A stretch of 64,000 nt of DNA from positions 19,184,734 to 19,248,733 of the forward strand of contig NC_089738.1 in the NCBI RefSeq assembly GCF_035083965.1, in the 5' to 3' direction. A program made the position numbers and the translations under genes. The DNA is from Branchiostoma lanceolatum (taxonomy: Eukaryota; Chordata; Leptocardii; Amphioxiformes; Branchiostomatidae). Shown in pieces: positions 1 to 30,800 of the stretch; positions within the stretch are counted from its first letter, which is position 1; each line of letters begins with the position of its first letter. Under the pieces are notes generated by a model. The model did not search any database. It was not told the DNA's origin and was given only the letters and a program-made list of their open reading frames with translations.

Positions 1-522
1 CCCAAAGAAATTATATTCATATAAGAGATCTTTATGAAAAGTCTCCACAATTTCAATAGAATGATGAATGGACGGCATTACGGAAAACATTGAAAGACAC
101 AGAAATATCCCATCTACATGAGTCTTCATGCATATTGCTTCCAATGCAATTGTATTGACTTCGGTTGCAAAGCTGACCAAAGTGATGATGTAGGTAGCGA
201 TATATACATAACCTCCACTATGTGAAAGAGGTCCTTTGCGTAGTGCACGCGATATATCAGAAAAGGAGTATGAAAAGATTCATGTAACGTTACGTACTTT
301 TTACCCCTCTAGAAGAGAATGGAACAGTCCAAGGTAGGTCAGGTGAAGGTTAGTAGAGTAAACAACAACCACTCAACCAAAACAACCAAAATGGCGGACA
401 GGTAGGCGGAAACTTTACCCCACCGTTATACTTCCCGACCAAACATAATCCTTATTACATGTACTACCGACGACAAGGAAGGCACATAACTCATCGTTGA
501 GAAGACGTACAAGCTACACAAG

Positions 523-3500
523 ATGTCCAAGAGGGATCTTGAACGGGTGAGCTCTTTTAGTTACATTGTATAGTTATTGAATGCAATGTTTGTAGTTTCT
601 AAGCCCGTGGTTCGTTGTGGCCACTTAAGGCGAAGAAACTCTGCTTGAATAGCAGCACACCAGGGAACGTTACGCTGAAGGAATTGAAATGATTATGATA
701 TTTATTTCATGTTTAACCTGATTTGAACAAAAATCTGTACAAAATAGATTTGTATCAAAAATACCCTGCGTGCACCGTGTACGTGCCCCAGCGCCTGTGG
801 ACTTTGAACGTCTGATGCCAACGTCACATGTCTACCTGATAACCGTATCCCACCTGATAATCAGCAACATATCTCGCTATCGGAATGTTTAAAGAACAAA
901 TATTGACGAATACGTCTGAATACCTGGGTTAATATTAAAATAGCCCGACTAGTTGCAGAGTCAGGACATAAAGTCCATTGCATTGTTTTAACTAAGGCCA
1001 CAGCAAGTAATTTTTATGGATGACATCAGCGCGCTCATTAATTTTCGCCTGATTTCGAAATAAAAAACAAGAAATTTCATTGCCCGACGACGGTGGTCAA
1101 CATGCCAAAAATTGGCAAATATGTGGTAAAAGTTGACAGTCTAAGGTGTTTCATTGTATATGAATACCCAGCGTAGTTCCTGTCCATGATGGTATAATAA
1201 CAAGCTATTTTCTGCATTTGTTCTAGCAGGGACATTATATGAATAATGTGGGGGGGGTCTAGTTAATTGAGATGTATACATATCTACAAGGACATGTTTA
1301 CTATTGAATCAAGGAGGATTTATATTGTATATGAATGAATACAAAACTAATACATTGGTTGAATACAGGATTAAAAGACCTGTTGGTCATGATATCATAT
1401 TTCGTCACCTCAATTCTTGTTTAACAAGAATTATGATCTCAAAATTTGAAAATATAGGAATCTTGTTTTTTTGGGCCCGCCTTGTTTTTTTTTCGCCCTA
1501 TCTCATTAATTTTGGAGTCTGTGGAGGATGTCATCCATACAATTTACTTGCTGTGGCCTAACCGTTATGTGAAACTTCGTGGTTCCTCTTCTATGTAAAA
1601 TTACTGGCAACAACAGGCCCCAAATACAAACTTAAGTTGTATACACTAAGCAACATTGAAAGTGTTTGTCATCATTACGTTAAAATAATGACTACTAAAG
1701 ATAAAACATGACTCAATATCCTTAGGAAGGTAGAACTACTTATCATCAGATAAACTAGATACTTTAACAGGACAAGTTATGATATTGCCTTTGTTGCTAC
1801 CTGTGTTTTGTTTGCATAGCTGATGTATATATCATGTTGATAAATGCCGCTTTCTTTAGGACCTTTTGCGTGCAGCTCGGAAAGGAGATGTAGAGACAGT
1901 GGAGCGATTAATCCAACAGAAAGTTGATGTCAACTGTAGGCTGGTAAGTAGGAAAGAACCACTTTTTCTGTCGCAGACCCGTGTTTCAGCAAAGGTCAAA
2001 GTGGGCTGGAATTAGGTATCTTCCCCCGTGCCATTAAAACATGGTTATGGTCCCTGATATAGGTGGCTCCTTTTTCTTTCTAAGTCTCTAAATATTCCGT
2101 TTCTCATGCATTACTGAAAACAGCGCTGTCCATTTCGATCACAAACACGATCTAATGTACTAATCCCCATTGCTCCTAAACTCATCACTACGCACGTGCT
2201 TACAGCACGGCGGGATTTGGTAGAATGTTGGTCATAAATATACACCGTAGCACTGGCCTTATCAAATTCTGCAGAACGGTAGCTTGCTGATTAAAAATAT
2301 GTTAGATTGTGCTCAATTATGTATGATTATATTTCTTCATGATGTATAGAGCAAAACGTTCAATTATTTTTCTAATGATGTATATGTGTCCAGGGAGCTA
2401 GAAAATGCGATACCATGTGTTCTCTCACCCCATCCAGCGTGGAGAATTTTGATAAACAAATTAGCAAACTGCTGAGCAGGGTACTTTTAGCCAAGATACG
2501 CGTGTAGACTACGCGCGGTACCGTACGTAGCACCTACAATGACAAATGTTGGGTGGTACTACGTTTAATTGACATGAAAATCATGATCATGTTCCCTGTA
2601 GTGCAATGATACACGGTTTCACATGGCCAGTTCTATGGTGCAAATTGTTGACCAACTTTCCGCAGTTTGTTCAAACCCCTACCAGTGCTAACAGCACCTC
2701 GGCTCTGTTGAAGTGGCTTCTAAGTTGGGTGATACCGAACATGATCATACATTTGTGGAAAAAGGGAAGAAAATTCACATCGGTACCCAGTAATCTTCAA
2801 TCGATGAGGGACGAAATTGTCTGCGTAAGCATTTTTGTCAACATCCATCAAAGATTTGACGGGAAATTCAAATCCCCATGGTGCCTATATCAAATAGCAG
2901 GTCGTTGGAAAAATGACCAAAAAAACGCTGCTATGTCACTACTATGGGACGATCCGTATCAATTGTTACCTGAAAGATATGTCGTTACTTACAATATTTT
3001 AAAAGTTTTTATATGATTATATATATATATGATCGTTACGTATCACTTCGAATATCAGCTGTAGGTTCCTATTATGATTTGATACCATCGTTGTTTCTGC
3101 TGTTTCAGGATGAAGCCACGCCACTTCACTATGCAGCTTCAGGAGGACATGTTGGTGTTGCTGAACTCCTCCTGAAGGCTGGAGCGCAGGTGGACAGTAG
3201 GGATGGGGTAAGGGTTGATGCTTTCTACAGGTGATTGACATGTTTGAGTGTTGAACATCACGCATATTTAGTGTTTATTATGATATGTAGACAGGATTCT
3301 GTTTCCATGTTATGTTATCTCTGTTCCTGCTGCTACAGTCTGGATACTCACCACTTTATAAGGCAGCTTCAGGAGGACATGTTGGTGTTGCTGAACTCCT
3401 CCTGGAGGCTGGAGCACAGGTGGACAGTAGGAATAAGGTTAGGGTTGATGCTTACTACAGATGATTGACATGTTGAGGGTTTGCTATACATATTCACTGT

Positions 3501-6500
3501 TTATTATGATAATGAGGATAGGCATCCCTTACCATGGAACATCATCTCTGCTCCTGCTGTTACAGCATGGATACTCACCACTTCACCATGCAGCTTCAGG
3601 AGGACATGTTGGTGTTGCTGAACTCCTCCTGAAGGCTGGAGCACAGGTGGACAGTAGGGGTGAGGTAAGGGTTGATGCTTACTACAGGTGATGTACATGT
3701 TTGAGTGTTGAACATTCTGCATATCTACTGTTTTTCTAGGTTAATCGAGGTAGGCTTCACTTATAAAGCAATGTCATCTCTGTTCCTGCTGTTGCAGTAT
3801 GGAGGCACACCACTTCACCGGGCAGCTTTAGGAGGACATGTTGGTGTTGCTGAACTCCTCCTGAAGGCTGGAGCACAGGTGGACAGTAGGACTGTGGTAA
3901 GGGTTGATGCTTTCTACAGGTGGTTATCATGTTTGAGTGTTCAACATCGAAAATATTTAGCGTATATCACTGTGGTTTAAACAAGCTTACTGTACTTCTG
4001 ATCATATTTTTTGAAATCATATTACAGGTATGCAATTTAGGTAGTGATTTTTCACAACGTTGTGACTGTAAACATGGTGATGGTCCTCTTACCAGGTAAT
4101 GTACATTAGGTTAATGGCTCAATAATGCTGTTACAGTTGAAATCCCCACCACTTCATAATGCATACAATATATAATGCAATATGATGTGATACTTTGAAA
4201 ATGTGTTAATCATGCATGAAACTTAGATAAACTTTTCGCACCATGTACTGAAAGGCATCTTTTTCCATTGACGCAATGTCATCTCTGTTCCTGCTGTTAG
4301 TGGGAAGCCACGCCACTTCACAAGGCAGCTTCAGGAGGACATGAGGGTGTTGCTGAATTCCTCCTGAAGGCTGGAGCACAGGTGGACAGTAGGGATCAGG
4401 TAAGGGTTGATGCTTACTACAGGTGATTGACATGTTTAAGTGTTGAACGTCACACAAATTTAGTGTTTATTATGATATGTAGACAGGACTCTGTTACCAT
4501 GTAATGTCATCTCTGTTCCTGCTGTTACAGTATGAAGACTCGCCACTTCACCAGGCAGCTGTAGGAGGACATGTTGGTGTTGCTGAACTCCTCCTGAAGG
4601 CTGGAGCACAGGTGGACAGTAGGAATGAGGTAAGGGTTGATGCTTACTACTGGTGATTGACAGGTTATGAGTGTTAAACATCATTCATATCTATGATGTT
4701 TAATAGGATAAAGGGGACAGGCGTCTCTCAGGCTAAGTAAAGTAATTTTTTCCTGTAGTATTCAACAAATGTTACAGTACAGCATTTCCGCTTTATTTAA
4801 GGCAAATTCAGGAGTGAGGTTGAAGGAGTAAGAATGGAAGTGTGATATTTATATCTCTTCATGAAAGAAAGCGAACCTTTCTATAGATATACGTCACGAG
4901 ATCTCAAGAAGACAAAAGGGTTGTCCAATTTATTTGTTTGTTTGTTTGTTTGGATGTTGTCCAAAACTTTGTACTTGGATAATTCATCCATATCTCTAAA
5001 ATCTATAATTTTTGTCTTGGAATAACTTCTCATCGATTTCATGTCCGCTGTTTTCTACGTAGAACGGCGAGACTCCTGAAGACATAGCAGCACGTGAATA
5101 CGTTCCACCGTGGGGTAGGAATAAAGATTACGTTCTGGATGGGCGGAAGAAGATTCTCGAGCTTTTTGCAGCAGAAAAGATGAAGCGGTAGGTAACAAAT
5201 CCGGTTATAGGTGTGTGTTGTAAACGGTGATAGGGCCTAATCAGCAGGGCTCTTTCCAATCATCACATTAAACAGTACACTTCTAAGCAACATGGATAGA
5301 ATTGGGAAACTTCCAAAACTTCTAAATTTCTAGCTGCTTCAGTAACTACCTGTTACCTTGCTTATCCCATGACCAGGATGTTTAAACTACATGGACATTA
5401 CATTCCAAGAGAATTGAAATAGGTCAAATACAGCATCACTTATTACTTCGGACCACCAGATATTTGTTGAAATTCTCACCCTTTGATTGATATCATTAAT
5501 TCCGTTCTTCTTTATCATTTTTCTTCATAATGCTTTACGTTCAATTTTATTTCAAAGCCCTTACAGGTGCAAAGTGGGTCCAGAAGGAGGTGAACTTCAA
5601 ACCGCGTCTTGTACCGTCACTTTGCCACGTGATGCCGTTACCATGGAAACGGAAATTACCTGTCAGGTCATCAACCCCAGTGACGTCACCCTCCCACTCA
5701 AGGATGGAGAGATGTTAGTGAGTGACATCATAGAGCTGGGTCCGCACGGGACAACCTTCCACCAACCTGTCACTGTACAGATGCATTACAGCAGCACGTC
5801 GTCAGGTGGCGCCATGAAAGCTGTCGTGTGGGTCACTGAGGACAGGTCACAATGGACAGAACTCAAGACCACTGAACTAGTATGTTGACAACTAAAACAT
5901 TCTGTAAGAGTACAAATTTCAAAAGTCCTTTATGTTCATATTCGCCAATATGTAGACGAACTCGCAACTCAACCATTGAAAAGATATTGTATTGCTACTA
6001 GCATCTGAAATGCGATCTAAGAAAGACAATGAAGTCCATTTTCATTTTTCACTGTAGACCACAGACAAGCTCACGGTGTCAGTGGACCACTTATCAATCT
6101 CTGCCGTCATCCGCCAGCCCAAACAGGACATGTTCACTGTGCCCACAGAAGGGTTTGAACTGACGTCATCAACGCAGCCTGAGGTTCAAATCAGCTTCCC
6201 AGAACAGTCTGTGAGCACAGCGACACAAGTCAACATACAGGTTAGGGTTGTTTCATTCAGTTTATCTTAAGAACCGTTAGATGAATTGTGATGATATTTG
6301 GTTTGGTCGATTTTGGGCCTCCTGGTGGTTTACCTTGGTAATGCAGCATGAAAGAAATATGCTGTAATTTGTTGCAAATGTTATCCTTCTAGTTGCGACT
6401 ATATCAGTATTAGCCCGTAAGCCCATGGTGATCGATGTACATGTATGATCAAAGTTGAGTCAGTGATAAGCATATGCACCAATTGATAAACATGTTATGA

Positions 6501-9282
6501 TAACCTTTGTGAAATGTATTGAAAAGAAAACACCACAGTGCAGATTTAGAAATCAGCGAAAACAAAGACATTTAGACAATTTTGATGCCCGCGTCACTTT
6601 GATGCTGATGTGATATTGATATAAACTTTACCTTGTACGTGAATCTACAATGAAAGTATAGTTGACATTATTAACGCAGCCTTTCACTTCAACGTTAGGT
6701 GCAAGAAGTTCCAAAAAGGGCGGTTGATGAGATCAGGGCGAAGGACCAGTCTTCCCGCGGTCTTGTCAGCACCAGTCCGATAGTCAAGGTGGAAACAGAG
6801 TCGGACTCCGAAGTCAAGTTTCTCAAACCAGCCAGATTGCGAGTCCCACATCCTAAGGACAAAGCCCAAGATGACTTACCCAACAAAACATTAAAAGTGA
6901 TGTCATCTAAGAAAGGGGCAGAAGACTGGATAGATGAAACTAAAAGCGCTAACATCCAGGAGTTTGAGGAGAGTGTGGAATTTGACGTCAGCTATAGTGC
7001 CAGGTAATTTTAATGACTCCTTATCTTTATTAATAAACTATAGCTAGGGACAGGGAACATGACAATTTACGAAATGTAGTTATGTTACAACTCACATATT
7101 AAGGACGTGACGTTGATCGAATGCACAGGTACAGCACAGAAAATTTCAGTTATATCACTTAGCTTGAAATGTATGTGTGTCTTTGTTATTCTGTTAAAAC
7201 GAAACATTTGTCAAAATGCGTCTGCCACTCAAGTAAATAAACAATTGTGTATTTAACTTCCAGATGGATTGTAATCGTTGTCACAGACGACTTCGATGAC
7301 CCAAAAGAATTTGGGCCGATCCCACTAAAGCTCTGCCGATGGCTTCAGAATCGTGACGTCCAGTTCATACTACTGCAGCGGGAGGACAACGCAAACGAAG
7401 TCGTCATTGAATGCTCATCGGCTCGCAATGCGAAAGAGATTCGCGCAAAGCTGATGAAGGAAGGCTATAAGGCTCCATTGCCTTCTGGTACAGTAAAGCT
7501 CTTCGAAGGACAAAGGGTAGAAGTAAGCTTGCTGGGAAACGTTTCAATCGCTGCATTTGGAGGCAGCACGAAACAACAGATCACCTTCCACAGTCAGAGA
7601 GACAACCGACTTCACATACAGGTTATGGGTCTGAAGGCAAAGGGCCAACTGGGTCTAGATGGTAGAGGAAGAGCCATGTTCTTTGCCTTGCAAAAGGTCG
7701 AAGTCTCAAGAGAAAATGAACAGAACGTAAGGGCAGCTGTGGAGCAGAAGGCAACTCATAGAGTTGAGGAGTTTCCGGAGCCAGAAATGCTTTGCCAGCT
7801 CCCGATCCATGTGCCTTATCCAAAATCGGTAAAACAGCTCTTTGTGCTTGTATTAAGTTGTTGGCAACAACAACAACAAAAGAATAAAGAAAATGCTAAG
7901 GGCAGAATCGATATCGTCCGAACTTACACCAAATGTGATTGCTCAATTTTTTACGCAGAAAGTGTCATATTATCAGCCTCTACCAGGCTCCGCCCGATCG
8001 CTGGGAAAATAGTAGAAATCGGCCAAATAGAGTGAATGGTATGTCAGGGCTAGTCCTCTATACAGTAAAGCTCAACAGGCGATCTACGCTTGTCCGTAGA
8101 TCGCCTATGGAGCGTCACTGTATAGAGAACTACCCTTGACATACTATTCACTATATTCGGCCGATTTCTACTATACTGTTAGAGGCTACCATATCATAAT
8201 CAAAACGGCTATTTGCAATTGGTTTGTAACACTTTCCTGCTCCTCCATAACATGTCTCAGGTACGCTAGTATATGGTACTGCTTCGCCGACCCTTAAGTA
8301 ATAAACCTTGCTCTAGTAAAACATCAAATATCAGAATAAGGCAATAATATGTTTGCGTTTTGTTTACAGGTTGAAGAGGCAAGTGCTTCAATTGAAGGTG
8401 AGGCAGTGACTTTACAAATGAAGTCATCAGTTATAAAATAAGTACCACGAAAACTTAAACATATCACACCCTCTTTGTACTTCTTTTGCTCAATTGTGAT
8501 AATACCACAGTGGGCATTGCTGCCACCTTTCTCTAACTTTCAGGCTCTTCATAGTATTGTACATTTCTGTCCTTCAACACATAATTTTTCGAATCGATTT
8601 TCTTCGATTCGATGGAAGTTCTGAAACTTAAACATATATATGAGTTCTATATGTTGTACTTTTCACCTTTTTCATCTTCCAGGCGTCGAGAAGTGCTTCT
8701 ACTTCATCAAGGAAGAAGTGAGCACGGACTGGGGAGATTTGGCCTTCCATCTTGGATTTAACTGGGCTGCCATAAAAAACATCACCGGCAGGAACCATGA
8801 CGACAAGTCCCGCTGTTTTGACCTGCTGTTTGAGTGGAAGAAGCGGAAGGGAGACGCCGCTACCGCCGAGGTCCTGATGGAGGCTCTAGCACAGGCGGAA
8901 CTAAAGAGCGTCGTGGACGGTTTGAAAAAGAAATTTCCAGATATCGGTAGGTTCCATGAAGGAGTATTTTATGTATGTTATGAATAGAGAAGTAGAAATA
9001 TTTCAATTCATTTGTTTTCTCTGTATGTTGGGTTGTGTTGCCCGCGAGATTCCTTACCGAATAAAATCATCATCATCATCAAATCATCAAATCATCAAAT
9101 CATCATCATCATCATGTTATCAGTTTGTTGCTATATCGTTTGTAATAAAGACAAGTACCTAATTGGCCTTGAGAAACTCGTATTCTTCTGTTTCTGTATC
9201 TATGTAGCCGGTATAATCAACATCTGCTCTTATTTTCTCGCCTCTGTCAGTGGTAGCAGACCAATACGAGGGAAGGGACTGA
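523..9282 (+). CDS. Ankyrin-repeat / ZU5 / UPA / death-domain protein, copy A
   Basis: Exons by splice logic: 523-546, 1860-1943, 3109-3207, 3339-3437, 3566-3664, 3798-3896, 4301-4399, 4531-4629, 5063-5187, 5567-5879, 6058-6240, 6699-7003, 7264-7828, 8370-8397, 8683-8946, 9251-9282; all phases agree. The product is about 838 aa. Residues 9-36 are an ankyrin cap (starts DLLRAARKGD) and 37-234 are six 33-aa ankyrin repeats. ZU5 starts near 276 (KVGPEGGEL), a second ZU5-like part spans about 390-543, UPA about 543-720, and the death domain about 741-828 ([12 protein letters not shown]). This order resembles ankyrin, PIDD and UNC5CL, so a cytosolic death-fold adaptor is likely. The ZU5 ends read HLS and YSA, not HFS as in PIDD. 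No signal peptide or membrane segment is seen. The C-terminus is uncertain: the consensus donor at 8947 leads to a stop at 9280, while a weaker donor four bases later (GTTCCA) would open two further exons (9251-9298, 9519-9639). Exon 1 is the least certain. Confidence 0.8.
3109..4629 (+). repeat. Array of six one-repeat ankyrin exons in near-identical 230-bp units
   Basis: Each unit is a 99-nt phase-0 exon (one complete 33-aa ankyrin repeat) plus an intron of about 130 bp ending in a similar tract (gctgttacag). Unit starts at 3109, 3339, 3566, 3798, 4301 and 4531 are 227-232 bp apart except around a decayed unit near 4137. The exon core [21 protein letters not shown] is almost invariant, even at synonymous sites. 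Differences cluster at residues 1-3, 8 and 32-33. The fifth exon has a shortened acceptor (gttag), shared with copy B at 14889, so those two exons are orthologous. Confidence 0.9.
4137..4165 (+). pseudogene. Decayed ankyrin exon remnant
   Basis: After an intact acceptor (gctgttacag, ending 4136) the sequence reads about ten codons of an ankyrin exon start, including PLHNA, and then runs into unrelated AT-rich sequence. The region between the fourth and fifth exons (3897-4300) is longer than the other introns, as expected if a former unit sat here. Confidence 0.7.
7970..8192. mobile_element. Foldback MITE in intron of copy A
   Basis: A long imperfect inverted repeat is centred near 8085. The arms include aatagtagaaatcggcc at about 8008 and its complement near 8160, ctctatacagt and its complement, and gcgatctacg/cgtagatcgc at the centre. 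Outer ends read cagcctcta and tagaggct. It lies between the UPA exon and the small exon at 8370. Copy B has no equivalent in its shorter intron, so it probably inserted after the unit duplication. Confidence 0.65.
9066..9115. repeat. (ATC)n simple repeat
   Basis: About 50 bp of ATC/AATC trinucleotide repeat in the intron after the death-domain exon of copy A. Confidence 0.85.
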
Positions 9283-11250: not shown

Positions 11251-12398
11251 TTGCCTGGGGTGTGTGAACAGGTTTCAGAGACAAAGGATATTCACGAGTT
11301 TCCACAGTTTCTGCAAAATGTTGTGTGAATAATTTTACGGACGATAGAAACAGAAAGTTAATTTTCCAATTTTCATAGTCATTGTTGTCAATGTGATGTT
11401 ATTGTTTTACCAAGCTGGACTGTTTTACTGTTTTTATTTCGGAAAATATCCCAAAATGACACATTTGACTTTCCCATACAATATAACATAACACAAAAAT
11501 ATTGCATATAGCCTCCAATGTATGAAAAAATGTTGTATCTTAAACAACGAAAATTGTGACCATTAAAGAAAACAACATGTTTAGTTTCCTATGCCAGGAT
11601 CGTCATCGGCTAAAGTTCCAGTCTCATCTGCTAGGGGCGCTCGTTTGCGTCGTTTGCTGTAGTTCAGCTTGACCGAACCATGCTACATCTATCCAACCCA
11701 TTGGCCTGGCCAGCAGGACTGCGTTAAATACATGGTTCATTTCTTGAGATAACGATATATGTGTCATGAGTGATGATTGAACATGTTCGAAAATTGTAAG
11801 GAAAAATGATATTGTTCCTTGTATAATTTTAATGGTTAAATGGTCCTGAAATAGTTTGAGAGAAATATCTTTTTTTAAACCCAAAGGAATAATATTTATT
11901 TAAGTGATCTTTATAAAAGTCTCCACAAATTTCAATAGAATGATGAACGGAGGGCATTACAGAATACATTGAAAGACACAGAAATATCCCATCTACATGA
12001 GTCTCCATGCAAATTGCTTTCAATGCAATTGTATTGACTGCGGTTGCAAAACTGACCAAAGGGATGATGTAGGTAGCGATATATACATAACCTCCACTAT
12101 GTGAAAGAGGTCCTTTGCGTAGTGCAGGCGATATATCAGAAAAGAAGTATGAAAAGATTCATGTAACGTTACGTATTTTTTACCCCTCTAGAAGAGAATG
12201 GGACCGTCCAAGGTAGGTCAGGTGAAGGTTAGTAAACAACAACCACTCAACCAAAACAACCAACATGGCGGACACGTAGGCGGAAACTTTACCCCACCGT
12301 TACTTCCCGACTGAGATACGTCTTTCCTGATTACCCGTACCTGTGGCGACAAGGAAGACACACAACTTATCACTGAAAAGACGAACAAGCCAGACAAG

Positions 12399-15300
12399 AT
12401 GTCCAAGAGTAGGCTTTTAGTGGTGATCTCTTTTATTTACTTTCTGTAGTAAATAAAATGCACTGTTGGTAGTTTTAGCCCGTGGTCAGTTGTGGCCACT
12501 GAAGGTGAGGAAACTCGACTTGAATGGTAGCATAGCAGGTAACGTTACGTCGATAGAAATAAAGTAATTATGCTATTCCATTTTTTTTACCTGAATTCGA
12601 ATAAATCTGTACAGAATTCGTATTATAGAAATACCTTGGGTGTACTGTGTACGTGGTCCGACGTCTGTGGACTTTGAACGTCTGATGCAACAGCTTAGTC
12701 ACATGTTTACCTGGTGACCGTATTCCACCTGATAACTGGCTACAGGATTCGCTGTCGGCATGTTCAAAGAACAAATATTGACGTGTACGTCTGAATACCT
12801 GGGTTGATAATAGCCCGAGTTAGTTACAGAGTCAGGTCATGAAGTCCATTGCATTGTTCTAACTATGTGAGATTTCGTTCTTACCTGTACCTCTTCCATG
12901 TAAAAATTACTGGCGGCAGGCTCTACATACAAACTTAACATCAAGCAACATCGCAGTGTTTGATATTGACTATTAAAGATAATACATGACGCAATATCCT
13001 TAGATGCGTAGAATTAATCATCAGAAGATAAACTAGATACCCGTAACAGGACGAGTTATGATATTGCCCTTGTTGCCACTTGTGAACTGTTTGTAGTGCT
13101 GATGAATATATCATGATGATGATGCCGCTTTCTTTAGGAACTTGCAGTTGCAGCTGCTGGTGGAGATATAAAGACAGTGGCGCGACTGATCCAACAAGAA
13201 GTTGATGTCAACTGTTGGTCCAGCGTGGTAAGTAAGGAGGAACCACTTTTTCTGTCACAAACCTGTTTCAGCACAAATCAAAGGGGGCTGGAATTAGGTA
13301 TCTTCCCCCCGTGCCATTAGAGCATGTTTATGGTCCCTGATATAGGTGGCGCCTTTTTCTTTCTAAGTATCTAAATATTCCGTTTCTCATGCATTACTGA
13401 AAACAGCGCTGTCAATTTCGATCACAAACATGATCTAAAGTACTAATCTCCATTGCTACTAAACTCATCACTACGCACGGTGAGATTTAGTTAAAAGTTT
13501 GTCATGAATGTACACCCAAGGAGATTATATGTAAAACCTTCTTGGTACACCGTAGCACCGGCCTTATTGAATTCTGCAGAATGGTCTTGTCTGGCTTTAA
13601 GGCCACGGTAGCTTATGTTTCATCATTTCTAATAATGTATATGTGTCCGGGGTGAGAGCTAGAAAAGGCAGTACCCCTCCAGTGTGGAGAATTTTGATAA
13701 ACAAATTAGCAAACTGCTGAGCAGGGTACTTTTAGCCAAGATACGCGCTGTACCGTACGTAGCACCTACAAAGACAAATGTTGATCATGAGTGGTACTAC
13801 GTTTAATTGACATGAAAACCATGTATTAAGTTCCCTGTACGGCAATGATACACGGTTTCACATGGTCAGTTCTATGGTGCATATTCTTGACTAACTTTCC
13901 GCAGACGTTGTTCAAACCCCTACCGGTACTAACAACACCTCGGCACCGTTGAAGTGACATTGTTCCTAGGTTAAGTCGGGTGATACTGAACATGATACAT
14001 TTTTGAGGAAAGGGAAGAAAATTCACATCGGTGCCCAGTAATCTTCAATCTACGAGGGACGGAAGTGTCTGCGTAAGCATTTTTGTCAACATTCTCGAGG
14101 AAATCAAAGATTCGACAGGAAATTCAAAACCCAATGGTGCCTATGTCAATTAGCAGGTCGTTGGAAAAATGACAAAAAACACTGCTATATCACTACTATG
14201 GGACGATCCGTATTAATTGTTACCTGGAATATATGTTGTTACTTGAAATATTTTAAAAGTTTTGATATGATTATACATATATGATCGTTACGCATCACTT
14301 CGAATAACAGCTGTGGGGTCCTATTATGATATGATACCATCTCTGTTCCTGCTGTTACAGGATGGATACTCACCACTTCACCATGCAGCTTCAGGAGGAC
14401 ATGTTGGTGTTGCTGAACTCCTCCTGAAGGCTGGAGCACAGGTGGACAGTAGGGATGGGGTAAGGGTTGATGCTTACTACAGGTGATTGACATGTTTGAG
14501 CGTTGAACATCACACATATTTAGTGTTTGTTATGACGTGTAGACAGGATTCTGTTACCATGTAATGTAATCTCTGCTCCTGCTTTTACAGTATGGAGACT
14601 CACCACTTCACAAGGCAGCATGTTTCGGACATGTTGGTGTTGCTGAACTCCTCCTGAAGGCTGGAGCACAGGTGGACAGTAGGGATCGGGTAATGGTTGA
14701 TGCTTACTACCTTAGACCTTAGTCCTTAGATCGTCCCGCAGCTTTGTTGCAACTTGGCGTCGATGTTTACTACTGGTGATTGAATTTTTTGTGTGTTACA
14801 CATCACAGATGTATATATCTAGTGCTTATTAGGATAATGAGGATAGAATTCTCTCACCATGTAATGTCATCTCTGTTCCTGCTGTTAGTTGGAAGCCACA
14901 CCACTTCACAAGGCAGCTTCAGGCGGACATGTTGGTGTTGTTGAACTCCTTCTGAAGGCTGGAGCACAGGTGGACAGTAGGGATCGGGTAAGGGTTGATG
15001 CTTACTACAGGTGATTGACATGTTGGAGTGTTGAACGTCACACATGTATGATGGGTGGGGTAGGATTCTGTTACCATGTAATGTCATCTCTAAGGGTTGA
15101 TGCTTACTACAGGTGATCGACATGTTTGAGTGTTGAACATCACGCATATTTAGTGTTTATTATTATATGTAGACAGGATTCTGTTACCATGTAATGTCAG
15201 CTCTGTTCCTGCTGTTACAGGATGAATCGACACCACTTCACAAGGCAGCTTCAGGCGGACATGTTGGTGTTGCTGAACTCCTCCTGAAGGCTGGAGCACA

Positions 15301-18300
15301 GGTGGACAGTAGGGATCGGGTAAGGGTTAATGCTTACTACAGGTGATTGACTGGTTATGAGTGTTTAACATCATTCATATCTATGATTGTTTATTATGAT
15401 AAAGGGGATCAGTCTAAGTAAAGTAGTCTTTTTTTCCTGTAGCAAATAAATGTACAGTATTTCCGCATAATCTAAGGTAAATCCAGGAGTGAGCTTGACG
15501 GAGTAAGAATGGAAGTGTGATATTGTTATGTATATCTCTTCATGAAAGAAAGCGAACCGTTCTATAGATATACGTCACGAGATCTCAAGAGGACAAAAGG
15601 GTTGTCCAATTTGTTTGTTTGTTTGTTTGTATGGATGTTGTCCAAAACTTTGTATTTGGATAATTCATCCATATCTCTAAATAGCTAATTTTTGTCTTGG
15701 AATAACTTCTCATTGATTTCATGTCCGCTGTTTTCTACGTAGAACGGTGAGACTCCTGAAGACATAGCGGCACGTAAAGACGTTCCATCGTGGCGGAATA
15801 AAGATTACGTTCTGGATGGAAGGAAGAAGATTCTCGAGCTTTTTGCAGCAGAAAAGATGAAGCGGTAGGTAACAAATCCAGTTATACTGTAGGTGTGCGT
15901 TATAAACGGTAAAGGGGCCTTATCAGCAGGGTTCTTTCCAATCATCACATTAAACACTACAGTTCTAAGTAACATGGATAGAATTTGGAAACTTCCAAAA
16001 CTTCTAAATTTCTAGCTGCTTCAGTAGCTACCTGTTACCTTGCTTATCCCATGACCAGGATGTTTAAACTACATGGACATTACATTCCAAGAGAATTGAA
16101 ATAGGTCAAATACAGCATCACTTATTACTTCTGACCACCAGATATTTGTTGAAATTCTCACCCTTTGATTGATATCATTAATTCCGTTCTTCTTTATTAT
16201 TTTTCTGCATAATGCTTTACGCTCAATTTTATTTCAAAGCCCTTACAGACGCAAAGTGGGTCCAGAAGGAGGTAAACTGCAAACCGCGTCGTGTACCGTC
16301 ACTGTACCACCTGGAGCCGTTACCATGGAAACAGAAATCACCTGCCAGGTAATCAACCCCGATGACGTCACCCTTCCTCTGAAGGACGGAGATATGTTAG
16401 TGAGTGACATCATAGAGCTGGGTCCGCACGGGACAACCTTCCTCCAACCTGTCACTGTACAGATGCAGTACAGCAGCACGTCGTCAGGTGGCGCCAGGGA
16501 GGCGGTCGTGTGGGTCACCCAGGACAGGTCACAATGGACGGAACTCAAGACGACTAAATTGGTACGTGAACAATCACAGATTTTTCAGAGTTCAAAATTT
16601 TCACATCAAGTCTTCCATTATTATTCACCAGTACTCGGTAAAATATACAACTGCCATTATTGGAGATATTGCTAGCACGGGAAATGCCGTCCACTATAAT
16701 AGCAAATGTATTCATTTTTTGTTTCATATTAGAGTGAGGACAAGCTTGCCGTGTCAGTGGACCATTTCTCCATCTTTGCCGTCATCAGTCAGCCCAAACA
16801 GGACCAGTCTACTGTGCCTATAGAGGGGCGCACTCTGACGTCATCAACGCAGCCTGCGGTACAAATCTGCTTCCCGGAACAGTCTGTGAGCACACCGACC
16901 CAGGTCATATTACAGGTCAGGGCATTATGTCATAGGTAAATCAATTCTAGAAAAGAATCGCAAAAGATATTTACAACGGATCTTGTTGCTATGTATGGTA
17001 ATAACCCACAACGGTATATGTCAACTACAGGTCCAAGAAGTTCCAAAAAGAGCAGTTGAAGACATAAAGGCAAAGGACCAGTCTTCCCCGCGCCTTCTGA
17101 GCAGCAGCCCGATTGTTCACGTGGAAACTGTTTCGGACGCCCAAGTCCATTTCCACAAACCAGTCACAGTGCGAGTCCCACATCCTCAACACTACATGGG
17201 CGTCCAACATGAGGGACCCGCCAAACTGAGAGTTATGTCATGTGAGGAGGAGACAGAAGACTGGGTGGATGTGACAGACGACACATCTATCACCTTGGTC
17301 ACAGAGGAGTATGTGGAGTTTGAAGTCAGCCATTTTACCAGGTAATGTAATTTCTTGGTCACTAGAATCTGTGTCGGGGACGTAGGACAGAACTATCAAA
17401 AGTCAAATTACATCAAATAGATTCCTTTCTTGGGACAGTTTAATATCAGTGATTTGATCGGTGATTTAATGCCATTGAGAGACAACGGCATTCCATCGAT
17501 GTATCCTTCGTCATCTAAAACTGCACATTTCTTGAAGTTAGGGGCTATCCTTAAAGCATTTTTTCGGTTTATCTGATTTCCAGATATATTTTACTCCTTG
17601 TCACGGACATCTTCCATGACCCGGAAGTCCTAGGCCCAATCCCGTTGCACCTTTGCAAATGGCTCGAACATCGTGCCGTGCAGTTCATACTTCTGCAGCG
17701 GGAGGACAACATGAAACAAGTCGTCATAGAATGCACACCAGCTGAAGAGGCAGACACCGAACATACAAAGCTACAGCAAAAGGGTTACAAGGGTCCGTTG
17801 CCTTCTAAGTCAGTCACGTTATTCGAAGGACAAAAGGTAGAAATACGTTTGCTGGGTAATGTGTCAATCGCGTCATCCTGCACGCAACCACACATCACCT
17901 TCCACAGCCAGAGACGTAACCGTCTCCAAATTCAGATCGAGGGCCGAGATGGTTCAGGCGGCAACGGAACTGTTGCGTTCTTGGCCTTGCCACGCGTCAA
18001 AGTCCAAAAAGAGAAAGATAACGCAAAAATAAGGAACGTGCGCAGAAAGCTCGAGAAACTCGGGAATCCCACAGACGAAGACGATCTACAATCAAAAGAG
18101 CTTTGCTCACTCCCGATCTACGTGCCGTGTGATTCTTCAAATGGGGTAAGATAACATTGATATATCTGTTTTCGTTGGGAAAGAAAGGAGGAAATAGTTT
18201 ATATAGCATGAAAGAAATAGACAACTATGACATTCACATTGTTAGGGAATTTTCTCTCTGTTATTTGCAATATAGCCTTGCCCCTTTTTTACATTTCAGG

Positions 18301-20134
18301 TACTCATCGAAATTATATCATAGGCCAAAAAATACCCACACACCCAAAAAGGCTGATCACCTAATGATCTAAACGCAGTTGTTGTATAATTTCACGTCAT
18401 AGTCCAAAACGACAATAAAGTAATAATAGTTTTGCTCTTATTTACAGACGTCAGAAGGAGCTGCAGGTGGTGCAACTTTCAAAGGTAAGGTAACATTTTT
18501 TTTCACAAAGAAAAGGTGCGACGTCACGTAGATGTGAAGTGTCGCGAAAGGTGTATCTACGAAAGGAAGAGAGTAGGAGTTACTCTGCTGCTTTTTCACA
18601 ATCATTCCATTTGGTTGGTCGCAGTCCTTTCTTGCACGATAGCCTTAGAACAGACAATAATCCCCACTACCTGCTCTTATAAGATAATATCTAGACATAC
18701 TGAGGCATCCATGCCTTGGGCTGGTTTATTGGTTTATTGGCAAAAAGACTTCCATTAGTGAAGTACACAAGTGTACTTCACTTTTCTTACTATGGAGTCA
18801 CATAACATACACATTACATTGGAACACATACGCATAATATTACATCATATATATACATTTACACATGTTCCGGTGGGACAGGTCATTCCGGCTTAAAACA
18901 GGGAGTTCCGATAAGCGACCTCTAGTATTTGTTTCACATAACCGTCAACCATAATTTCGTCATAACTGAATTGCTAGAGATGGCTTTTTACACTTGAAGG
19001 TAAAAGGTGTGTATGTTCTTATCCAAAACATATATTCTGTGGTCTACGCTGTCTTTCAGGCGTTGGGAAGTACTTCTATTTCATCAAGAAAGAGGTAAGT
19101 TCGGACTGGAAGGATTTGGCCTTCCATCTTGGATTTGAGGGGTCAGACATCAACAACATTGCCGGCAGAAACCCCGACGACAAGTCCCGCTGCATGGACA
19201 TGTTGAGGGAGTGGCAGAAGCGGGAGGGAAACTCCGCGACCTTAGAGGTCCTGAAAGAGGCTCTGTTGAACGCTGGGCTGAAGAGCGTTGCGGATGATTT
19301 AGAGATCAAACACCCACAACAAATTGCTAGATACGGGTAAGTATACATTGCTTCATGGAAGTACTTTTCAGATAGAAGAATTGCAAGTTCTTGCCCGAAG
19401 GCTTTTCTTCAGATATATGACTTTTTCGACATGATATTTTACAAGACAAGCAGGAACCTAAGGGAATTCTTCCATTGCCACATTCTTTATTATAGTGTTT
19501 GTCATCTAAATGATACCGTTTGTCACATCAATCAGACAAATACATCCCTGGTTTTGAAAAGTTCATCTGTATGTAGTTTTCTCCTTATCAGACAGACCTC
19601 CACAACAAGGGGAGAAGAAGAGATATGCCCTCCAAAAAGGTAACGTATTATGCATCGACATGTTTTACAGTACGAAACGATTTTAACGCGACCATCAACT
19701 TTGGTTATTACTAATAATATATTCATGGTTATAAGTGACGTTAAAAAGGGCAACTCTACTATACGCTGTCAGAGATACCAACGAACCAACCAACGAACCA
19801 ACGAACCAACGAACCAACCAACCAACCAACCAACCCGCCAACCAACCAACCAACCAACCAACCCGCCAACTAACCATTCATTCATTTCATTCAACCAACG
19901 TTGTACGTATTAGTTCCAAAATATAAAGATGGCTTTTTTGCCACATCCCATGGATGGAGTGACACCAAAATGACCCAGTTGCTTTTTTTATTTGCTCGTT
20001 CGTCTGTTACGCTTAATATAAGCATGTGCATTTATATCCTCTTCAGTGAAGAAGACTCCATTGCTACGATGGTGACACGTGTATTTGCAGCTGGCGCAAC
20101 ATCTATTAGACAAATCTTCAACAGGAAGAAGTGA
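12399..20134 (+). CDS. Ankyrin-repeat / ZU5 / UPA / death-domain protein, copy B
   Basis: Exons: 12399-12422, 13138-13227, 14361-14459, 14591-14689, 14889-14987, 15221-15319, 15743-15864, 16249-16561, 16733-16915, 17031-17341, 17584-18145, 18448-18484, 19060-19336, 19592-19639, 20047-20134. All phases close and give 816 aa. Ankyrin cap 9-38, four ankyrin repeats 39-170, linker to 211, ZU5 about 211-330, second ZU5-like module about 335-480, UPA about 480-660, death domain about 680-770, then a basic tail ending NRKK. ZU5 modules end in H326-F327-S328 and H477-F478-T479. These match the His-Phe-Ser autoproteolysis site known in PIDD and UNC5CL, so B may self-cleave into up to three pieces; this is inference. 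The exon-1 donor is GTGATC rather than GTGAGC as in copy A, which makes exon 1 uncertain. The protein is probably cytosolic. Confidence 0.82.
14361..15319 (+). repeat. Array of four one-repeat ankyrin exons
   Basis: 99-nt phase-0 exons start at 14361, 14591, 14889 and 15221, with the same intron framework as copy A. The second has CF in place of the usual SG at positions 11-12. The last three all end in DR. Between the third and fourth exons, intron 3' sequence (catctct, ending 15091) joins directly to intron 5' sequence (aagggttgatg, from 15092). This marks a lost exon. Confidence 0.88.
14713..14768 (-). mobile_element. 5'-truncated non-LTR retrotransposon 3' end
   Basis: About 55 bp in the second ankyrin intron read ccttagacc-ttagtcc-ttagatc followed by sequence similar to the element at 63838-64000. 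On the minus strand this is the last codons of the same reverse-transcriptase-type ORF, its stop, and the taaggtc tail repeats. It is absent from the matching introns of copy A. It interrupts the otherwise regular ttgatgcttactac intron motif. Confidence 0.65.
19777..19875. repeat. (AACC)n simple repeat
   Basis: About 100 bp of AACC/AACG tetranucleotides in the last intron of copy B, between exons 19592-19639 and 20047-20134. Apparent Asn-Glx-Pro-Thr open frames here are artefacts of the repeat. Confidence 0.9.
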
Positions 20135-24814: not shown

Positions 24815-27800
24815 CTACACCGACGTCTCCCTGAACCCGTTCTTGCCTCCCCTCTTCACCCCAAAGTTCACCACCATCACCGTAATATTATCCAGCGATC
24901 CGCGATAGAACGCCTGTAACGTGATACTCTTCGCTCCAAAGTGCGGCTCGTCAAGACGTTCCTTAATGAAATCCACGGCCTCCTCGTTGCTAAACGCGTC
25001 CCACAATCCATCGGTGGCGAGAATCATGAATTGCGGCCTGATGTCCCTCAAGTCAAACGACAAAATGTCCGGGTCCGCCACGATGTAACTCCTGTCCTTT
25101 AATGGATAGTCCCCTAAGGCACGCGAGGTCGCCAGCACTCCCTGCACCCTCCACACCCCGTTATAACTAATGAATCCCCCCGCCTTCTTTATCCTCTTGC
25201 GCTCCTTGAGGATCTGCGGCTTGTGGTCGAACGAGAGCGGGATGGCTCGCCCCTCGGCGTCGCAGATGACACCTCGCGAGTCACCGACGTTGGCCACCGT
25301 CAACTGGTTGTCTTCTAACAACGCCACCAGTGCTGTCGTGCCTGGGAAAGGAAAATTGACAAACGTTAGTCTAGAACATTTAAAAATTTGAATCGAAAAA
25401 TATAATCTTGTAGTAACCCAGAATGTAATGTGAGATAAATCATCATATCCAAAAATAATTACTCAAGCAACTGCTGGATATAATTTTGAAACAGTCAGAT
25501 GTTTCAGACAGTGTCCGCTGTCTCTCATGATCAGTGACTATACGGAAAGGACTGGGAAAGCTGGAAAATTGTCTTAACCTCATTAACCTCATCTATTCAG
25601 AGTTTTGGTATAAAACCTGGTTGACATTATATTCATAACAACAATAATTATTTTCCTGAGTGTATTTCTGCAATCCATTTTGGTCTTTTCAAAATGCACA
25701 TTGAGTACTAACAACTACATGCACCATAAATACTGTATTACTTTAGGCACACAAAATCCTTTCATTTCCTCTGCTTCCTTTCCTAACCCCCCTTACATTA
25801 TTGATGGACCAGCTAAAGACTCCATTATTACGTCTGTATCTCCCTCATAAAGCCATTAACCATGTGTCATAATACACAGCCTGGCAAACTCATTTCTATT
25901 GCCAGCTTTAGATCTATAGGCCCAATCAATACATTTCTATGGTTCTCAGACATCTAAAGGTAAGAATTTGTTTGTTTGAATCTTTGTTTATTCATGAGAA
26001 GCTTGAATCAGCCTGCAGGCCGCTTTTCATTGAGTTCATGAGGTTCTAGCTCTAGCTCTAGTTCTAGTAAATAATTATGTAACTGTTAAGTCAAATCAAG
26101 TAATTGTTGGCGCAATTCATGTGGATATTTTATTTTATATAAATGTCACATGCAATGCCAATCAGAAAGAAAGTCGAATCTGAATCTAGTTCAGCATTTA
26201 TAATTCTTTAAATCTAGGCACCAACAAATTGATTTACAATGGCCTAATATATCCATCATGCTCTCTGCGTTTCCCTTATAAAGCTATCATCCATATGTCA
26301 CAATAGAGATCCTGCCGAACTCATTCCCTATTTGCAGCCTTAATGATGCAAGCACAGTACAATTGTACAGTCATGTGTTACCCCTTCACATAAAGACTAG
26401 TGGAGTTATGCTTCTGGGTTATGAAAAGTTCAACTCATACTTACAGCTCTTCCAGACTTTGCATTCATAGATCATTTATGGGGTAATAATGCAAGACATT
26501 TGTGTCTTTTGGACCAACTTATGAATTCTAATCAAGGAGGCAGAAGAGACTCTTGACAAAACCTTATGCAGACAACAAATGCCATGCCAGAATGACGCAA
26601 TGGTAGCCCTTGCCACAATGGAACGTAGGATGCTATTTGCTGTTTATTTGTTTCTATTTCTTTCCTACGTTTGCCGAACGTGAACGTTTTAACGAGCGCG
26701 TTCGCAGAACAACTTTGTTTGAATAAAGGGAGTTGATTTCGAGGATTGAACGTGTCAAGACGTCTTTTATTTAGCTGCGTGTTGTGTCTTGTCTTCCGTC
26801 GTTTCGTTATCGTCATCGTCACCCCGCCGGCAAGATCCATTACAGAAGGAAGGCTGCCATCCCCTCTTCTTTACATGGGAAAGGTCATACCGATTAAGCT
26901 TGCCGGTTTTCGGATTTAGAAAAAAATGAATCATTTAGATGCTGAACAGGAAGATCAACACGAAAGAGTCTGAGGGGAAAGTCTGTACATTGCTGCACAC
27001 AGTTTCACATGATAAGTAGTCAGGTTTAAGATTTCTTCCCTGCCCTTTTTTTATCTTGACCTCTTGACTGCATTTGTACATTAACTTTAAGACATCTTGG
27101 AATGAGGGAAATAAATTATGGCCTTGAAAAAATAGATACTGTATAAATGGGTTTTCACAGTAATTCGATTTTGTGGCACGAGCAAAACTGAGTCTGGTGG
27201 TTTTAGATTTACAATACATTAACCGCTGAAACAATGGGGCAGGCAGACAGAACGTAATTAAGTCAAGCATTTTTAGCCTGGGTGCCATCCTATTTCTACC
27301 GGGGCTCCTACACTCGCTACCCTAATGTAGGAGCCCGGTAGAAATAGGATGGCACCCAGGCTAAAGCATTTTTGCGGTGGTTTTGAATTCGTGGTGAATA
27401 TGCTTTTAGCCGTGAAAGCCGGGAACATTAAACCACTGCAACATTACAGTATTCTTACCAGCCACGTCCTTGTGTGTTTTTGCTGTTGCGACCAGTTTCT
27501 TGTCCACAGACAGGATCTCGTCTGTGAGGATGGAGAAGTGGTCCTGATGGTTCTTCTCCACATCTTCCCGCATCAGCCTCTGCTCCAAGACTTCTGTCAG
27601 CTTCTTCTCCGCATACTCAGCTGCAAACTGGGGAAAGACATTGAAATTGAGTGTGACTGTGAGTAAGAGGTTTCATATAAATGTTTAAGATTGAAGACTT
27701 AGTGGTTTTATTGTGTCACAGCTAAAATACTAACTCGACCCTAAATCTCTGTTTAAAAGCTTTTTTTCAGCAGCAAACTGGAGAAAAGACACATTGAATC

Positions 27801-30800
27801 CTTTTTTGGCATAATAAATCAATTACTTTATCAAAGACAATCACATACCGGTAATACGTCTGACTCACTATTACAAAACAAGTATCACACAGTTTCATCA
27901 CACAAATCAGAAGTGACTGTAGAATACAGATGAGATTTAAAGAATCATGTACAACACCCCTCATGCCAGAACTGTGTTGCAATGTGAACTACTGATCTTA
28001 GAACTAGTAGTTATAGAACTTAGAACTAGTACTTAGGTTAATCATTTTGTATACCATTGTTTGTTGTTTGCATGTATAGTTGTAGAAGACCTTACGAAAG
28101 TCGCTGTACTTTTGTCGTGTCAATAAAGATTTCTCCATAATATATCATATATAATATATCAACATCACAAAACAAATGTTGTAAGGTTCTAACTGAGTGG
28201 GTTGCACACTTCTTGCACAGTAAACGTAATTAGTCTTATACCCCTCGGCGCTTCTCTTAATTAGAATTACCTTCTGACAATTTAACATAACAATTTCATC
28301 GAAGATTTCGTAATTAGTTTGAGACTGGCAAACTGAGGGACATGATGCATAACTGGTTTCCAACTGCTTTGTCATAATTCTGAAACCCCCTCGATATTTG
28401 TCAAATTCATGTCAATTGACCTAGAAAGCCCTCTTTTCAATGGCACCATGTTAACTTTGCAAACAATGAAATTTCCGGTACCCCCTACTACTAGAAATTA
28501 TCATTATTGGATTTTCTCTTACTAGTAATTTTGAGAAACTCGAAGTATTCAGCACTTCATTTTCACTTCATTTTCATTTCTTTTTCAGGAAGTTCTTGTA
28601 GTTATTGATTAAAAGCAGTGACAGTATACACTTAAATTGCAGTTATCTTAACCTATTTTGCTTGGACTCTTGACCTTAATTCATTTCTAATCTCAGCCAG
28701 TAATGCTTTGGAATGAATTATTAATTAATCAATCAACCTATCAATCAATTAATCAATCCATTGGTTAATTGATTGACTGATTTCTTAATTAGACTCCAAT
28801 TAATGTGAGACTTTCTTCCACATCTAGAGTTGATGTAACAAAACCTGCCTTACTGGGTGACAGATGTGAAAACTATTAGCCTCTATTCAATATTTCTTCC
28901 CCAGCATCCTGTATTTTCTCACTCCTGCAAAGCGAATGACATTCTAATCAACTGTTGCAGAGTCTGATGTGATTACGATGTTCCAGCTAATTAGTGTCGG
29001 GTAATTAATCTGGCCTTAATGAGCTGGAACTAATTGAAATCCCTCCTGGGTTCCACTATTTGTAGCATCCATTTGTACCACATACCATGGCAGCACTGCT
29101 GGGCCAAGTCAAGTCATTCGACTGGTTCTCAAACAATTGGAAGAAGTGAAACTGTAGAGAATGTTAACTTTGAACCCTAAAATATAGAAAAGTGTTGTGG
29201 GTTCCTAAAAGTGATTCAGGTGTGATTCACTTGTACCACAAATCATGGTTACCGTAGTACATGGCAAAATCAAATGATTTATCTGGTATCTTAGACTAGA
29301 GTAAGGATTGAAAACAAAGGAATGCAAACTGCTAGTCTTATAATTATATGATATTATATAGCTGCAAGTACACCACAAGCAGAGCTGTTTCCAGGTTTAA
29401 ATTTTTGTTCTGTCCCATTCATTGTTTTGGAGCCCATGTTGTTGATTTTTGTTGTCAAATCTGTCATCTTACTTTACGAAAGTCATGTTTTCATCAGTTG
29501 TTGTGATGTCATGAATTCAGATTGATTGAATGGATGAAGTTGTGAAATTTTTATCTGTCCAAAGGAGCAAATTTCTATCCCAGGACGGAGGGACGGGTCC
29601 TGGAGACAGCTTTGACCACAAGTTAGGATTCCGGTGGGGCCCGGAAGTCTGACCTCTGCACAGATTACATACCACTGCATGAAAAGTAGGGCATAGTTTC
29701 AATCTAACTCCCATGCAGTCTCCTAGCTGTAAACTGTTACAGACATAGTGCAGCACACAAGTTCCTGTAGTTGGTTAGGGTCACAAGTTACAGTCTGCAC
29801 ATTGAAGAGGGTCTGCAAGCTCTTTTCTGATAAGGCGTATGCAGTCTATTTCTATTTCCTTTGATTCGCAGGGAAAGCCGTCTTATATAAACATGTAATT
29901 CGTAGGGAGGTGAAAAAAATTCCTTGTTCCTTGATCTTAGAGGAATACGTAGGGAGTACTTCAGCTTAAAGCCTTGCAGGGACCCCCATGCAAACCCTCA
30001 CTGAAGGGTTACCACTAGCTCACTCTCCACAAATGGAATACATGTGTGGGATAACTTGGGTTCATTGCCAAGGTCAAGGTCTGGCTTGCCCAAAACTCGG
30101 GACTCCGCTAACTTCCCCTCTGTAGGACTGCGCAATCAGCAGCTTCCAGGGCTGTCGAACTGTCACAAGCTGCCGGACCGGGAGTCAAACCCAGAACCTC
30201 CTGAACCAGACTAGTAGACCGGGAGTCAAACCCGTGACCTCCTGAACCAGACTAGTAGACCGGGAGTCAAACCCAGAACCTCCTGAACCAGACTAGTAGA
30301 CCGGGAGTCAAACCCAGAACCTCCTGAACCAGACTAGTAGACCGGGAGTCAAACCCAGAACCTCCTGAACCAGACTAGTAGACCGGGAGTCAAACCCAGA
30401 ACCTCCTGAACCAGACTAGTAGACCAGGAGTCAAACCCGTGACCTCCTGAACACAATCGTGCTACTCGTACGTAGTACACCGGGATTCGAATTTCAAACC
30501 CCGTCAGCAGACTGTTGGATAAGGATTCGAAACCCATGACCTCCTGAACATGATCCAGACTGCCAGACTAGGATTTGAACTCATGACCTCCTGAACACAG
30601 ACTACTAAGACCAGCCAGGATTCAAACCCGTTGAAGGATTCGTAACCAACAACTTTCTGAATGCAGACTGCCAGCGTGACAGGGAGTAAAACCCAGGACC
30701 TCCTGAACCAGACAACTAGACCAGGATTCCAACCCACAACTTGAAGTTCCTGACTGTTAGACCAGGATTTAAACCCATGACGTTTTGATCGTGATACAGA

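Follow-up and report, generated by a model that had tools for sequence, protein, structure and literature searches.

Tandem ankyrin-repeat death-domain genes of amphioxus, one of them carrying two PIDD1-like candidate self-cleavage sites

A window of 64,000 nucleotides of Branchiostoma lanceolatum DNA (NC_089738.1, positions 19,184,734 to 19,248,733; coordinates below are those of the window) contains two tandem genes on the + strand, copy A and copy B, both encoding ankyrin-repeat death-domain proteins according to spliced models built from the window sequence. The model of copy A comprised 15 exons (523-8946) with GT/AG introns and no internal stop, and addition of a last exon at 9251-9282 brought it to 16 exons, 523-9282, and 838 amino acids. 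That of copy B comprised 13 exons (12399-19336) with GT donors, AG acceptors and no stop inside; two terminal exons (19592-19639 and 20047-20134), predicted from sequence alone, extended it to 12399-20134 and to a predicted protein of 816 amino acids ending in a stop. In copy B, exons 1-7 (12399-15864) encode the start, the ankyrin repeats, matched by Pfam Ank families, and a linker; exon 8 (16249-16561) the first part of ZU5 module 1 (Pfam ZU5, residues 214-300); exon 9 (16733-16915) the end of module 1 and the start of module 2; exon 10 (17031-17341) module 2, both of these assigned with the help of a PIDD1 alignment; exon 11 (17584-18145) the UPA domain; and exons 12-13 (18448-19336) a linker and the death domain (Pfam Death, residues 691-761). 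Ankyrin-repeat exons of 99 bases number four in copy B, in phase 0, and six in copy A, and part repeats are present in both. Both proteins gave Pfam matches to ankyrin repeats, to ZU5 in two stretches and to a death domain, with UPA below its cut-off; in copy B, UPA_2 (residues 539-621) was just short of it, with an E value of 0.00025, and structural matches to the UPA domains of ankyrin and NLRP1 were found for a family relative. On these grounds, the order ZU5-ZU5-UPA-death domain was assigned to copy B, which with its ankyrin repeats has the arrangement of ankyrins; the solved structures nearest by sequence were those of ankyrins 1-3. No leucine-rich-repeat family was found by Pfam in copy B at E values up to 0.1, ankyrin repeats being present instead. 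Elsewhere in the window, an ORF at 24815-25327 on the - strand is presumably an exon of a PP2C-type phosphatase, and one at 35077-36411 on the + strand is taken by us to encode a leucine-rich-repeat transmembrane protein. Two tRNA-Ser calls by ARAGORN at 30176-30452 are probably false, as they fall within a tandem repeat made of 6.8 copies of a 41-base unit.

Each ZU5 module of copy B ends in a triplet, His326-Phe327-Ser328 for module 1 (site 1; 16763-16771, in exon 9) and His477-Phe478-Thr479 for module 2 (site 2; 17331-17339, at the end of exon 10), both placed by the gene model, the rows of related proteins, the PIDD1 alignment and the structures of relatives. By gene model and PIDD1 alignment, the equivalents in copy A, also on the + strand, are HLS (residues 391-393; 6088-6096), which keeps base and nucleophile and has Leu for Phe, and YSA (residues 540-542; 6993-7001), in which base and nucleophile are gone. 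The residue numbers and coordinates that an earlier note had assigned to all four triplets were reproduced exactly by the spliced models. Its statement that copy A has lost both sites held for site 2, where YSA offers neither base nor nucleophile; as a settled statement for the pair it was rejected, HLS at site 1 having kept His and Ser. With Leu in the middle, H-X-S/T is the usual motif of GAIN autoproteolysis, and BAI2 has HLS yet is uncut there (PMC13062082), so that a correct triplet is not enough for cutting. The predicted copy A protein shows a clear loss at site 2 only.

Two predicted proteins of B. lanceolatum in the database correspond to parts of these genes. Over the 376 residues encoded by exons 5-10, both triplets included, P0088 and copy B agree without exception. 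P0089 matches copy A at every one of 320 residues, which run from within exon 12 through exon 15, and ten further residues agree with exon 16, the match thus extending over the last 330 residues of copy A; P0089 begins inside ZU5 module 2 and covers YSA, not HLS. The database thus splits both genes, and since P0088 stops right after HFTR, without UPA or death domain, full-length copy B is a predicted transcript only. In both copies, read-through of the donor that follows site 2 meets an immediate stop (AGG TAA; 17340-17345 and 7002-7007). A protein ending at this exon-10 donor stop, as P0088 does, would resemble the N-terminal product of a cut at site 2, and possibly is an annotation artefact.

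The condition of copy A could also be that of a decaying gene, in which case its difference from copy B would be functionally meaningless. Its site 2 is lost and, in a quick tree of the family (see below), its end branch is fairly long (0.29 versus a median of 0.13). Against this, copy A has 16 open exons joined at GT/AG splice sites, with no stop inside, part of it is covered by a predicted database protein, and dN/dS versus copy B was 0.42 to 0.53 over 554 codons; decay was held to be the least probable of the explanations considered.

Comparison of the two copies revealed a mosaic. At the DNA level, copy A and copy B are 80-86% identical, introns included, up to window base 6247, the alike 5' stretches being 1-6247 and 11880-16922 on the + strand. 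The intron before ZU5 module 1 showed 95.5% identity, intron identities being inflated where intron lengths are very unequal. Beyond 6247, only three stretches matched, all of them on exons and at 71-77%, so that the join lies just past the exon that holds site 1. In protein comparisons, the ZU5-1 part of copy A had copy B as its nearest relative (84% identity, rank 1 among the other members), and for ZU5-2, UPA and death domain copy B ranked 41st, 31st and 31st, 30 or more other members being nearer to copy A. In reverse, the ZU5-1 part of copy B ranked copy A ninth by score, yet at the highest identity shown, 83.5%. The possibility that the tandem pair is a simple duplicate was considered and fits these ranks poorly. 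Because ZU5-1 is nearest to copy B and the downstream domains are nearer to other members, the two genes appear to have like sensor halves and different processing halves, for which gene conversion of the sensor half would be the likeliest cause.

To place the pair among its relatives, the tail of copy B was searched against the database, in a search that required shared 5-residue words and scored only the 7993 candidates sharing most of them. Of 84 proteins returned, 50 (P0001-P0050) bear ZU5, and all of these whose names show an organism are from Branchiostoma; the other 34 are death-domain carriers matching about 15% of the query. The 50 relatives were drawn from several genomes and therefore do not represent 50 genes of one animal, but eight rows are named B. 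lanceolatum, evidencing several paralogues per genome. Their automatic names are "p53-induced death domain-containing protein 1-like" in 23 cases, ankyrin-like in 12, "positive regulation of extrinsic apoptotic signaling pathway..." in 13 and otherwise in two. A second search gave 60 matches, among which the organism-bearing names were all Branchiostoma except for P0093, an ankyrin-like protein of fish. The suggestion that an ankyrin-repeat protein with two PIDD-type sites would be a new sensor design found no support, since there are 50 ZU5-bearing relatives in the database, 23 of them PIDD1-like by name, and the domain order is that of ankyrins. Among the titles and abstract openings of the matches listed in a literature search for the family, no description of it was found, and the terms ZU5, ankyrin, ANK and PIDD are absent from the main text of PMC2575513.

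The triplets are widely conserved in this family. HFS was present at site 1 in 39 of 49 readable rows, with Ser at the nucleophile position in 44 of 50. Site 2, readable in 48 rows, reads HFT in 29, HFA in six, HFS in four, HCT in three, RFA in two and otherwise in four; HFT and HFS together account for 33 of 48. The nucleophile position of site 2 holds Thr or Ser in 40 of 49 rows and Ala in nine, and Cys stands at the Phe position in five of 49. Both sites conform to HF[ST] in 29 of 50 family rows, and by these counts copy B is typical and copy A the exception. Thr at site 2, which had been called unusual, is so with respect to PIDD1; within the family the claim was rejected, HFT being the commonest form. 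An alignment of 52 rows, made up of family rows and the two window copies after P0049, P0050 and P0087 had been dropped from 53 family proteins for short coverage, contained 77 HF[ST] triplets, 72 of them at the two sites, compared with 4.2 expected in all from composition: the triplets are present beyond chance. Sorted by triplet alone, 29 of the 52 rows have both sites, seven have site 1 and a broken site 2, three have site 2 and a broken site 1 (P0038, P0044 and P0047), and three have both broken (P0041, P0045 and P0048), a state that copy A nearly shares; the remaining ten are intermediate or gapped, including copy A (HLS and a broken site 2) and one alike. P0044 has Cys at the nucleophile place of site 1 and might still react there. 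Losses at the two sites coincided among 47 readable rows (Fisher p 0.02), which is suggestive only, since the rows are related.

Site 2 is the more variable of the two, which raised the possibility that only site 1 works, site 2 surviving for structural reasons as a slow or inactive remnant; N and C fragments would then be made and no CC fragment. The occurrence of Ala at its nucleophile position and of Cys at its Phe position is in line with this, and so was a quick tree built with the site columns excluded, PIDD1 as outgroup on a long branch, SH-aLRT support only, and the three short proteins left out. Fewest changes of the intact state on this tree were two at site 1 and five at site 2, and seven rows that combine HFS at site 1 with HFA or RFA at site 2 form one clade. 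As its organism-named members are from B. belcheri and a floridae x belcheri hybrid, that clade may reflect one species' history. However, Thr or Ser has been kept at site 2 in most rows, three rows that lost the site 1 triplet keep site 2, and Thr is a normal nucleophile of GAIN domains (PMC13062082) and a known one of such autoproteolysis in general (PMC3210808, PMC13062082), Ser, Thr or Cys being able to start these reactions (PMC3210808). Restriction of activity to site 1 was thus considered unlikely, if the strongest of the competing explanations. In the same tree, the rows nearest to the PIDD1 outgroup have HFS/HFT.

Equivalence of the two sites to those of PIDD1 was assessed with database PIDD1 sequences, collected with a human PIDD1 sequence as bait. 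This search gave 640 matches, the best 120 of which are nearly all mammalian PIDD1 by name, the rest being nameless or hypothetical. The tail of copy B aligned end-to-end with one of the PIDD1 proteins, P0095 (162 bits, 26% over 588 columns), and its HFS and HFT fell in the same alignment columns as both HFS sites of PIDD1, bearing out their description as PIDD-like. Cleavage of PIDD occurs at HF/S behind each of its ZU5 domains, with S446 and S588 as nucleophiles, and replacement of Phe by His abolished or severely impaired cutting in CARD8, PIDD and Nup98, whereas Nup98 depends less on the triplet's His (PMC3210808). In the best 120 of the 640 rows, site 1 of PIDD1 reads HFS in 116, with four unmatched by the search pattern, and site 2 reads HFS in 95 and RFS in seven, with 18 unmatched. 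The RFS rows (P0135, P0147, P0164, P0195, P0201, P0205 and P0208) belong to whales, pig, deer, sheep and cattle. Wild-type BAI3, with Arg at the place of His, was uncut in the tests of PMC13062082, and the second PIDD1 cut may for that reason be weakened in these mammals. ZU5 activity has also been assigned to a CxH motif (PMC3482391); the Cys is missing from copy B, Val standing there at both sites, and PIDD1 rows are likewise without Cys two residues before His. Copy B and PIDD1 share ZU5-ZU5-UPA-death domain and a pair of HF(S/T) triplets that coincide in the alignment. They differ in that copy B has ankyrin repeats where PIDD1 has N-terminal leucine-rich repeats, in the conservative change of Ser to Thr at site 2, in the several paralogues per genome, and in that Peptidase_S68 (PF10461), listed for PIDD1 rows, was found neither in copy B at E values up to 0.1 nor in six of six family proteins at E values up to 10 in a search whose HMMER filters drop most weak matches.

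Structural models of relatives were inspected for the position of the triplets. In that of P0003, 73% identical, strands 106-113 and 116-123 flank HFS (113-115), and strands 257-264 and 267-274 flank HFT (264-266), each triplet being in a tight turn. In structural matches to GAIN domains, the two His residues map to latrophilin-1 836, BAI3 855 and BAI2 910, if the aligned ends are ungapped, and these are GAIN base positions (PMC13062082). Placement of the triplets away from the scissile loop, which the earlier note had set against its own proposal, was not what the models of relatives showed: both occupy the turn at which cleavage of GAIN domains takes place. The likeness to GAIN domains of adhesion GPCRs comprises H-X-S/T in the same structural place, with His as base and Ser or Thr as nucleophile; GAIN differs in being an extracellular receptor domain with Leu mid-motif and without UPA or death domain. 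Matches were also obtained to NLRP1/CARD8 structures (7crv, 7crw, 7jn7), whose FIIND is a ZU5-UPA unit cut at F/S at the ZU5 end (PMC3210808, PMC8081665). These proteins have a single ZU5, SF/S rather than HFS, the catalytic His elsewhere and a CARD, a layout unlike that of copy B with its two ZU5 modules, HFS/HFT and death domain. UNC5CL is anchored in the membrane and combines a single HFS-bearing ZU5 with UPA and a death domain.

The top Foldseek match was the ZU5-ZU5-UPA-DD tandem of ankyrin-B (E 6e-32), with a whole-length TM of 0.24, by which the ankyrin-B domain arrangement is not reproduced; given this loose fit and the low pTM of the models (0.45 and 0.39), domain placement is unsure. 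Ankyrins (ANK1-3) share the domain order of copy B and are its top PDB matches by sequence and Foldseek, but have HFS/HFT at neither position, reading DFPQY and VSAR there, and the ankyrin-like P0093 has FPQ and VSA in the two triplet columns. The ankyrin solenoid has about 24 repeats, whereas the amphioxus copies have four or six whole repeat exons, and their linker between the ZU5 modules is shorter. Scores over the two ZU5 modules were 92.6 bits for copy B and PIDD1, 75.1 for copy B and P0093, and 51 for PIDD1 and P0093, which places the family between the last two. Two divergent relatives matched P0093 as well as or better than PIDD1, P0038 scoring 70.5 with PIDD1 and 69.2 with P0093, and P0045 48.2 and 68.6, respectively. 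These matches, the shared domain order, the Foldseek result and the uncut HLS of BAI2 (PMC13062082) would fit uncut scaffolds of ankyrin type, in which retention of the triplets would reflect the need of the inter-strand turn for a buried Phe and a small residue. Yet ankyrins, with the same domains, manage without HFS, and what has been kept includes the catalytic letters beyond Phe, which are common to PIDD1 and a bacterial-looking ZU5 protein. Such scaffolds were judged improbable, about on a par with decay of copy A and marginally ahead of it.

Taken together, the most favored reading, to which a probability of about 65% was given, is that copy B is an adaptor that cuts itself in the manner of PIDD1 and that copy A has a similar sensor half and a site 2 that cannot be cut. 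The adaptor would consist of an ankyrin-repeat sensor, a pair of ZU5 autoproteolysis modules, UPA and a death domain, and most likely would undergo an N-to-O acyl shift that breaks the chain at Phe327-Ser328 and at Phe478-Thr479. Predicted fragments are an N fragment of about 35 kDa, a C fragment of 54.7 kDa that comprises ZU5-2, UPA and death domain, and a CC fragment of 37.8 kDa in which ZU5-2 is missing. PIDD1-C and PIDD1-CC, of about 51 and 37 kDa, lead to NF-kB and caspase-2, respectively (PMC8385073), and the similar masses predicted for the copy B fragments were counted in favor of PIDD1-like cutting, as were the alignment with PIDD1, the conservation of the triplets, the HFS/HFT rows next to the outgroup, the GAIN-like turn and the lack of the triplets in ankyrins. 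Weighing against it are the uncut HLS of BAI2, the missing Peptidase_S68 match, the CxH motif proposed for ZU5 activity, the low pTM and loose whole-length fits, the early end of P0088, Ala at site 2 in nine of 49 rows and the UPA_2 match below its cut-off. We infer that the ZU5 pieces would restrain the part made of UPA and death domain until a trigger is sensed by the ankyrin repeats, and that the fragments may connect to NF-kB and caspase-2 as those of PIDD1 do. With no cut possible at site 2, copy A would make at most a C-type product, and none if HLS is dead.

At the place of the copy B triplet, P0094, a bacterial-looking secreted ZU5 protein of 382 amino acids from ENA, reads TAFHFSVFAPV. 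Since HFS is present in this protein, animal ZU5 domains may derive from a form with HFS, which ankyrins would have lost. A broader and more tentative proposal, which we consider possible but doubtful, is that the ankyrin-repeat adaptors of amphioxus form a set, the two-cut switch of PIDD being fixed gene by gene with both sites, site 1 only, site 2 only or neither, and that similar sensor halves are combined with differing processing halves through gene conversion, of which copy A would be an instance, so that one trigger could reach different outputs; the family may also preserve a form ancestral both to ankyrins, in which the sites were lost, and to PIDD1, in which the ankyrin repeats were replaced. 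If this is true, two-site self-cleaving ZU5 adaptors are not bound to leucine-rich repeats, and the question whether ankyrins had self-cleaving ancestors is touched as well. With paralogues in which both sites, a single one or none has been retained, the division of labor between C and CC fragments would become testable in an invertebrate chordate without designed mutants.
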